Positions 1-32,876 of a stretch of DNA of 34,870 nt are shown here, piece after piece (position 1 is the first letter of the stretch; every line of letters starts with the position of its first letter). The position numbers and the translations under genes were made by a program. The DNA comes from Sulfurospirillum sp. GTDB taxonomy: Bacteria; Campylobacterota; Campylobacteria; Campylobacterales; Sulfurospirillaceae. Below the pieces are notes generated by a model. It was given only the letters and a program-made list of their open reading frames with translations. It ran no database searches and was not told the DNA's origin. Where the stretch lies: positions 1 to 34,870 of the forward strand of contig JALSLU010000147.1 of assembly GCA_026988125.1 (NCBI GenBank). The letters run 5' to 3'.

Positions 1-264
1 CAATATATGTTTTATGAGCATAAAAAGTTTAGAGTTTAGCCCTGACCCCCTTCTAAACATGAGCCACAAATCCTTGGTGAACTTTTTAGAGATTTAGAGT
101 ATTAACTTGAATCACTAGCTATCTCTATGCAGATTTTTATAAAAATACTCACAAAAATCTCTGAAGTTAAAAATGTTCTCAAGGAGAATAAAAACTTTTT
201 ACAGATTATCGCTCTTCTTAGTGCTTATACGCAAAAAGAGTTGGGTTTTATGTGCGAAAGTTGA
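1..264 (+). pseudogene. Possible decayed coding remnant at the window edge
   Basis: No intact gene is visible in the first 360 bases. One forward frame (codons at positions 1, 4, 7 and so on) reads protein-like from about 106 to a TGA at 262-264, ending in a Leu/Lys-rich stretch and the residues GFMCES. Upstream in the same frame it is broken by stops at 37, 43 and 103. Another frame is open from the window edge to a TAG at 95-97, so the end of a neighbouring gene or a frameshifted gene are both possible. A short inverted repeat (GTTTAGA at 27-33, TCTAAAC at 53-59) encloses the segment with two of the stops. I do not recognise the family. The rest of the stretch, 265-360, holds the promoter of the next gene. 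Confidence 0.3.
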
Positions 265-294
265 GTAATATATTTTTATACTCAATCATTATAC

Positions 295-31722: not shown

Positions 31723-32172
31723 TTGAGATTTTATAGTTATGATGAGTTTAAAATAGATGTAAATTTTTTATCAAAACAGATTAGGGAGTATAAACCAGAT
31801 GTCATTTTGGCTGTTGCTAGAGGGGGTATGACACTGGGTCATTTTTTAGCTGAAGCGTTAGAATTAAGAGATTTGTACTCTATTAATTCTATTCATTATG
31901 AAGAGACAAAGAAGTTAGATACAATAGATATATTTAATATTCCTGATCTATCTAAAGTTAAAAAAGTTGTTATTGTTGATGATATCATAGATAGTGGTGA
32001 AACTATGATTGAAATTAAAAAAGTTTTGTCAAATAAATTTCCTCATTTAGATTTAAAAGTTGCAACAATTTACTATAAAGAAAAAGCTTTGATTATTCCA
32101 GATTACAAAGTTAGAGAAGCAAATGAATGGATAGAATTTTTTTGGGATTTTCAAATAGATAACTTAAAGTAG
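31723..32172 (+). CDS. Xanthine-guanine-type phosphoribosyltransferase
   Basis: 149 residues with the PRPP-binding motif VVIVDDIIDSGETM (~86-99) and the N-terminal AVARGGMTLGHFL segment typical of the Gpt family. It would convert imported purine bases to nucleotides. The start is TTG 31723 after AAGGGGAAAA, 9 bases past the permease stop. Base specificity (xanthine, guanine, hypoxanthine) is not certain. A hairpin begins at the stop codon. Confidence 0.85.
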   Translation: MRFYSYDEFKIDVNFLSKQIREYKPDVILAVARGGMTLGHFLAEALELRDLYSINSIHYEETKKLDTIDIFNIPDLSKVKKVVIVDDIIDSGETMIEIKKVLSNKFPHLDLKVATIYYKEKALIIPDYKVREANEWIEFFWDFQIDNLK

Positions 32173-32193
32173 GGAGAAAGGTTTTAACCTCCC
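32172..32193 (+). terminator. Hairpin ending the purine salvage operon
   Basis: GGGA and GGTT pair with AACC and TCCC around TT, with GAAA unpaired on the left. A T-rich stretch (CTTTATTTTG) follows. It begins at the last base of the stop codon. Confidence 0.6.
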
Positions 32194-32204
32194 TCGCTTT
32201 ATTT

Positions 32205-32213
32205 TGATATAAT
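32205..32213 (+). promoter_or_regulatory. Extended -10 promoter of trpG/pabA
   Basis: TGA followed by a perfect TATAAT (32208-32213). Transcription would start near 32220, at the left arm of the 54-bp palindrome. A ribosome site AAGGAT lies before the ATG at 32307. Confidence 0.65.
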
Positions 32214-32215
32214 AA

Positions 32216-32269
32216 CTGACCCTACGCACCATAAGCACACCTAGGTGTGCTTATGGTGCGTAGGGTCAG
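32216..32269. repeat. Perfect 54-bp palindrome
   Basis: Arms of 27 bases (32216-32242 and 32243-32269) are exact reverse complements with no loop, centred on CCTAGG. The outer ends are CTGACCCTAC and GTAGGGTCAG. It is more GC-rich than its surroundings. There is no T tract for termination in either direction. GTAG-led ends recall REP sequences recognised by RAYT (Y1) transposases, but no such gene is in the window. It lies 3 bases after the -10, so it would form the 5' end of the trpG message. Confidence 0.9.
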
Positions 32270-32306
32270 ATAATATGTAACACTAACTTAAGGATAAAAA
32301 TTTAAA

Positions 32307-32876
32307 ATGATTTTAATGATAGATAATTATGATAGTTTTACTTATAACATAGTCCAATACTGTTTAGAACTTGGGGCAAATTTGAAAGTGATTAGAAATG
32401 ATGAATTAGATGTAAAAGGGATTGAAAAATTATCTCCTCAAAAGATTATTATCTCGCCAGGGCCTGCAACTCCAAATGAAGCGGGAGTTAGTTTAGAGGT
32501 TGTAGATTTTTTTAAAGATAAACTACCAATTTTTGGTATCTGTTTAGGGCATCAAGCAATAGCACAAGTTTTTGGAGCCAAAATTATAAGGGCAAAAAAT
32601 ATGATGCATGGAAAAACTTCGTTAATTGAACAGGTTGAGAGTAGCAAGATTTTCAGAAACTTACCAAAAAAGTTTGTAATGACTAGGTATCATTCATTAG
32701 TTGTTGAAAATAAAAATTTACCAGAAGAGATCAAGGTCACATCATATAGCTGTGATGACAATGAAATAATGTCACTTGAGATAAAAGATAAGGATATTTA
32801 TGGAGTTCAATTTCATCCAGAGTCTATATTGAGTGAGTATGGTCATGAGATGTTGGATAATTTTTTAAAACTATGA
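32307..32876 (+). CDS. trpG/pabA: Anthranilate/aminodeoxychorismate synthase glutamine amidotransferase
   Basis: Class I glutaminase subunit that supplies ammonia for anthranilate (tryptophan) or p-aminobenzoate (folate). 189 residues: MIDNYDSFTYNIVQY opening, SPGPATPNEAG (~50-60), nucleophile C79 in GICLGHQA and the His/Glu of QFHPESI (~168-174). Sequence does not separate TrpG from PabA, and the enzyme may be shared. No synthase large subunit is adjacent. The start is preceded by the palindrome-containing leader; the 3' end overlaps the next gene by 4 bases. Confidence 0.88.
   Translation: MILMIDNYDSFTYNIVQYCLELGANLKVIRNDELDVKGIEKLSPQKIIISPGPATPNEAGVSLEVVDFFKDKLPIFGICLGHQAIAQVFGAKIIRAKNMMHGKTSLIEQVESSKIFRNLPKKFVMTRYHSLVVENKNLPEEIKVTSYSCDDNEIMSLEIKDKDIYGVQFHPESILSEYGHEMLDNFLKL

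Follow-up and report, generated by a model that had tools for sequence, protein, structure and literature searches.

In the window, the whole stretch of 34,870 nucleotides that was analysed, a gap of 134 bp between a phosphoribosyltransferase-domain gene and a folate/tryptophan gene of the pabA/trpG type holds a perfect palindrome of 54 bp (CTGACCCTACGCACCATAAGCACACCT / AGGTGTGCTTATGGTGCGTAGGGTCAG; Table 1). Direct reading confirms the initial annotation in that the palindrome consists of two 27-base arms with no mismatch and no spacer, and in that it starts at the third base past an extended -10. The chance expectation for such a palindrome in 34,870 random bases is about 2e-12 (34870 x 4^-27). 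The same annotation had described palindromes of this kind as unstable, a statement that is only partly apt here, since several genomes have retained ends-only forms of 41-63 bp.

Table 1. Features of the window that bear on the palindrome, with positions counted from its first base
Feature	Position	Strand	Remarks
3'-terminal remnant of a decayed ISPepr1-like (IS4-family) transposase gene	52..265	+	one internal stop; 252-265 is its right terminal repeat, GTGCGAAAGTTGAG; kin of the likely mobilising enzyme
Upstream phosphoribosyltransferase-domain gene	31723..32172	+	PF00156
Hairpin GGGAGAAAGGTTTTAACCTCCC, probably the terminator of the upstream gene	32172..32194	+	from sequence; comparable hairpins here in relatives
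Extended -10 TGATATAAT	32205..32213	+	TG 32205-32206, TATAAT 32208-32213; intact, upstream of the insertion
Left 7-bp target duplication copy, ATAATAA	32209..32215	.	overlaps the -10 box
Perfect 54-bp palindrome, ends-only MITE form	32216..32269	.	left arm 32216-32242, right arm 32243-32269
CCTAGG at the palindrome centre	32240..32245	.	putative interior-deletion junction; CCTAGG stands at both inner ends of the 266-bp parent
Right 7-bp target duplication copy, ATAATAT	32270..32276	.	6/7 identical to the left copy, one mismatch
Downstream pabA/trpG-type class-I glutamine amidotransferase gene	32307..32876	+	PF00117, E 1.7e-58; present in relatives

Transcription from the extended -10 would begin within the left arm, a few bases in and about 7 nt past the -10, giving a message headed by a hairpin of 23-24 bp that leaves the ribosome-binding region free downstream. 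The RNA taken from 32217 onward folds in silico into a hairpin of 24 bp at its 5' end (the whole stretch of 114 nt gives -49.5 kcal/mol, z -10), and the AAGGAT region before the ATG lies outside this predicted structure. The earlier proposal that an RNA from the predicted site would carry a 5' hairpin is upheld by the folding model, which places a 24-bp hairpin near the 5' end. No run of T follows the palindrome on the coding strand, which rules it out as an intrinsic terminator for pabA. It may affect the stability of the message or initiation, and the DNA may extrude a cruciform; the likely consequence would be at most an altered message half-life or initiation and not a dedicated switch, and nothing here suggests a conserved regulatory role for the palindrome.

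A dispersed family of gene-less elements

The source genome (G000) is a 98.6% complete draft of 1.87 Mb in 176 contigs, in which the palindrome and its flanks, used as a query, returned 50 matches (each palindromic place being counted on both strands). A 30-base arm pattern matched 43 times in this genome and 56 times in G015, which belongs to the same family but to a different genus, with no match for the reversed control. Matches in the named collection come from metagenome assemblies of Campylobacteraceae and Helicobacteraceae. The outer 20-mer, at up to 2 mismatches, occurs in 24 of 398 genomes sampled across the order. The recurrence of the arm throughout its own genome substantiates the earlier suggestion of mobile DNA. 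Viral contigs yielded no match to the 20-mer and one isolated 18-mer match without a partner end.

The commonest type of copy is not palindromic: it is a gene-less element of 266 bp that consists of CTGACCTTACGCACYATAAGCACACCTAGG, two hairpins of about 100 bases each and the inverted end, the family pattern being inverted ends CTGACCTTACGCAC...CCTAGG that flank two large hairpins. Copies range from 41 to 269 bp in length, and in none of the 34 copies tested does an ORF span the element. One complete 266-bp copy folds into a branched structure on an outer stem (z -11.3 against shuffles). Genomes of other families (G076, G098, G202 and G012) carry elements of about the same length that share the outer 14 bases and have different interiors, and there are subfamilies of 116-119 bp (G070, G145 and G245) and of 211-256 bp (G119, G272 and G131). 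The family represents a known kind of element, the MITE (a non-autonomous transposon), and is apparently undescribed as a family: the literature searched yielded neither its end sequence nor a paper on MITEs of this group.

Members of the 211-256 bp subfamily (L194, L195, L245 and L250) have unequal ends, one being CTGATGTTACGCAC and the opposite one CTGACCTTACGCAC. The interior hairpins of copies of 200-280 bp (such as L015:664-929, L177 and L183) tend to carry TGCRAGG on one side and an ACGAAGC-like sequence on the other; a loose pattern of such hairpins matches 32 of 46 elements and 0 of 46 shuffled ones, and they resemble the CGTCATTGCGAGG...CGAAGCAATC-type hairpins inside the G119, G272 and G131 elements. 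At G015:C162:16444-17285 (L138), the neighbours of a full 266-bp copy are a gene resembling a tRNA and a Y1 transposase gene of the IS200 type, which is probably a coincidence. An Rfam search returned nothing above the gathering score, and the sub-threshold matches to microRNA hairpin families are meaningless here.

Target sites, probable interior deletion and arm identity

Across 77 copies, the 7-bp flank pairs are identical in 16 (1.4 expected by permutation, with a maximum of 6 in 1000) and show at most one mismatch in 28 (7.6 expected); in many copies the target duplication is imperfect or not visible. The preferred target is AT-rich, TTWWTAA. This motif is nearly symmetric, and the flanks might be read as inverted rather than direct repeats, a reading ruled out by the non-symmetric perfect duplications TTTCTCA, ATAAGAA and TGACTAA.

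Comparison with relatives of the same genus supports a mobile element as well, as the palindrome is absent from the pabA promoter in G001, G003, G004 and G005. At the empty sites of G001, G003 and G004, TGNTATAAT stands 15-35 nt before the pabA start codon; most of the -10 box thus falls within the duplication, the upstream copy of which keeps the TG and the full -10 hexamer. The sequence and the empty sites show that the pabA/trpG-type gene has the element in its AT-rich -10 region, and that the accompanying 7-bp duplication spared the extended -10 upstream. In a second pair of filled and empty sites (L074 and L093), seven bases are present in addition to the element, and the two copies of the duplication are no longer identical.

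The hexamer CCTAGG occupies positions 25-30 and 237-242 in 22 of the 27 counted 266-bp copies and is its own reverse complement, so that the two boxes are also direct repeats. When the stretch between the boxes is removed in silico from a real copy, exactly 54 bp remain. Copies of this length are found in the source genome (the window copy, C100 and C43) and in G015 (C94, C196 and C102), copies without one hairpin measure 154-163 bp, and other genomes have ends-only forms of 41-63 bp that differ in their cores. A pair of 266-bp and 54-bp alleles at one locus was not seen. Copy lengths and boundaries suggest that the 54-bp form is what remained of the 266-bp parent after a deletion from one CCTAGG box to the other had removed the interior. 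The palindrome is very probably the two ends of a small gene-less mobile element, joined after loss of the interior, and represents mobile DNA rather than a conserved regulatory signal. Even shorter products of collapse (CTGACCTTACGCACTATAAGGTCAG), apparently due to deletion between TAAG repeats within both arms, are present at L092 and L093.

The window copy has C for T at position 7 of both arms, which none of the other copies counted in G000 and G015 shares, and the C94 copy of G015 has a private T at position 1 of both arms. Within the outer 14 bases, mirrored deviations make up 5/9 in copies shorter than 64 bp and 2/41 in longer ones (Fisher p 0.001), in a test that pools copies gathered in different ways, not all of them independent. 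An orthologous 63-bp copy is shared by two species (G032:C68:3017-3079, L270; G036:C49:12631-12693, L272) within 3 kb of 92% identical DNA, and between them its spacer is inverted with the outer ends in unchanged order. Arm homogenisation and spacer inversion are the products described for template switching between inverted repeats in passages of PMC8604942 and PMC8794818. The excess of mirrored mutations in short copies would fit such template switching during replication. Copying errors in which one arm templates the other would, on the evidence of the mirrored changes and the spacer inversion, both make and keep the arms identical, including the private T-to-C change.

Two identical 52-bp ends-only elements with an asymmetric core lie at unrelated loci of one genome (G035:C31:7429-7480, L271; G035:C186:8045-8096, L276), one with a perfect 8-bp target duplication (TTATTTAA) and the other with a 6-bp duplication (TTTTAA). 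The simplest reading of this single pair is that the 52-bp form may itself have transposed. On the strength of these two copies with their duplications and of the mirrored-mutation excess in short copies, it is conceivable, if somewhat doubtful, that ends-only hairpins of about 41-57 bp are mobile units for which two near-touching transposase ends suffice, and in which template switching between the arms rebuilds matched ends, allowing the element to repair itself while spreading. If short forms truly move, they would be among the smallest transposable units and would limit the spacing of two transposase-bound ends.

The candidate transposase

Long terminal inverted repeats and 7-bp duplications are indicative of a DDE transposase, with IS4 as the likeliest family. 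DDE_Tnp_1 has no match in the source genome; in 22 carrier genomes, it matched mostly unrelated IS types and one C-terminal fragment in G070, the stop codon of which lies inside a TIR-like sequence. This fragment led to a group of transposases of about 454 aa, with matches to the C-terminal part in 52 of 398 genomes and with two full-length members that pass the NCBIfam IS4 model NF049925. The candidate IS transposase reaches 282 bits against the model cut-off of 250, and of the YREK motif of IS4-family transposases it has Y, R and E, with the last K replaced by R (YKKRWNIEQGYKDLR). The candidate IS elements are 1476-1564 bp long with ends CTCAACTTTCGCACATAAA or CTTAACTTTCGCAC, and the copies L221, L223, L227 and L228 are flanked by perfect 7-bp duplications. 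On plasmid pCNAC48 of Aliarcobacter cryaerophilus (L280), a complete ISPepr1-like element of the same group adjoins an annotated aph(3')-IIIa resistance gene.

The ISPepr1 subgroup of the IS4 family features ends of the form YT-AA-YTT---A, a length of 1500-1600 bp and duplications of 7-8 bp with a preference for AT-rich sites (PMC2266710). The candidate IS ends (CTCAACTTTCGCAC) agree with this pattern at 8/8 positions and the MITE ends (CTGACCTTACGCAC) at 6/8, and an AT-rich target duplication of this size is found for both MITE and IS copies. The MITE end shares 11/14 bases with the nearest IS end and differs at 3/14, and bridging variants are CTGAGCTTTCGCAC, from an IS (L223), and CTGAGCTTACGCAC, from MITE-like ends in G023 found with a search pattern drawn partly from the IS and thus partly circular. 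A pattern search of 397 genomes returned no autonomous element whose ends are exactly CTGACCTTACGCAC, and NF049925 revealed no autonomous IS4-type element with exact MITE ends in 30 carrier genomes. The IS4/ISPepr1 link therefore rests on 11 of 14 end bases, the duplication length and the target, and a transposase of this type is a likely rather than a proven mobiliser.

Competing explanations and known systems

Considered as a whole, the palindrome is very probably a Campylobacterota MITE in its minimal, ends-only state, which most likely owes its mobility to an ISPepr1-like transposase of the IS4 family acting in trans; this explanation includes the collapse, the copying between arms and the insertion at the promoter. 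It is rather unlikely that the same MITE family depends on a different, unseen transposase family, in which case the likeness to IS4/ISPepr1 would be coincidence or distant kinship only. Such a situation would accord with the lack of exact-end IS4-type autonomous elements in the 30 carrier genomes, and a 39-kb scan for the ends at up to 3 mismatches does yield some chance matches; however, the likeness lies at the exact IS terminus, is accompanied by the same 7-bp duplication and AT-rich target, and is bridged by the end variants. An assembly artefact of the metagenome-assembled genome, namely a snap-back join in a draft of 176 contigs, has a negligible probability, given that short forms occur in several independent genomes, each time with flanks and duplications of their own, and that in the window the flanks differ on the two sides and both genes stand in the expected order.

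The mirrored changes would likewise result from compensatory selection if the palindrome were a functional regulatory hairpin or operator of pabA/trpG whose perfection is kept by selection on pairing, and both its placement at the presumed transcription start and the very stable predicted RNA hairpin are consistent with such a role. This account is nevertheless improbable: relatives lack the palindrome at the pabA promoter, short copies, several of them imperfect, occupy unrelated loci, and spacer inversion between orthologues, a template-switching product according to a passage of PMC8604942, is not predicted by pairing selection. Still less probable is a REP/BIME-like element moved by RAYT (Y1 tyrosine transposase), a kinship that the initial annotation had drawn from the ends of the palindrome. 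A short intergenic palindrome in many copies with GTAG near its ends recalls such elements, the carrier G015 has two Y1 genes, and GTAG REPs have been reported in all divisions of Proteobacteria (PMC3733652). Neither the REP-like ends nor the RAYT link could be sustained, as GTAG stems from the private T-to-C change of the window copy and lies inside the stem, the family consensus being GTAA, and the search for Y1 transposase genes (PF01797) found none in the 98.6% complete draft of the source genome. Furthermore, the family shows terminal inverted repeats with 7-bp target duplications, which are not known as features of RAYT/REP movement.

Viewed as a collapsed MITE, the odd promoter palindrome becomes a traceable event, an insertion by which the -10 box was spared and a strong hairpin came to lie close to the presumed start of the message. 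The family offers a natural, many-copy record of perfect palindromes in bacteria: their formation through loss of the interior, the upkeep of their perfection through copying between arms, and their rearrangement through spacer inversion. For annotation, it accounts for one type of perfect intergenic hairpin in draft genomes of Campylobacterota.

Known bacterial MITEs, such as MITEAba12, Nezha and NEMIS/Correia (PMC6382973, PMC3733652), are also gene-less, dispersed and intergenic, with inverted ends, target duplications and strong hairpins; the present family differs in its ends, host phylum and two-hairpin-module interior, and in having ends-only palindromic derivatives of 41-63 bp as separate copies. 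GTAG REPs and their RAYT partners (PMC3733652) share the feature of small palindromes in intergenic DNA, whereas the family described here has a GTAA consensus end, real target duplications and long terminal repeats, and no RAYT gene was found. The ISPepr1 subgroup of IS4 (PMC2266710) is alike in its CT ends, T-T at positions 7-8, AT-rich targets and 7(-8) bp duplications, and full-length elements from this order, with CTCAACTTTCGCAC at their ends, pass NF049925; unlike these, the MITE has no transposase gene and differs from the nearest IS ends seen at 3/14 end positions. Finally, arm homogenisation, mirrored changes and spacer inversion are shared with template-switch (quasipalindrome) mutation as treated in passages of PMC8794818, PMC8604942 and PMC7202029, which concern RNA genes, coding repeats or reporter assays, whereas here the process is deduced from the copies of a transposon.
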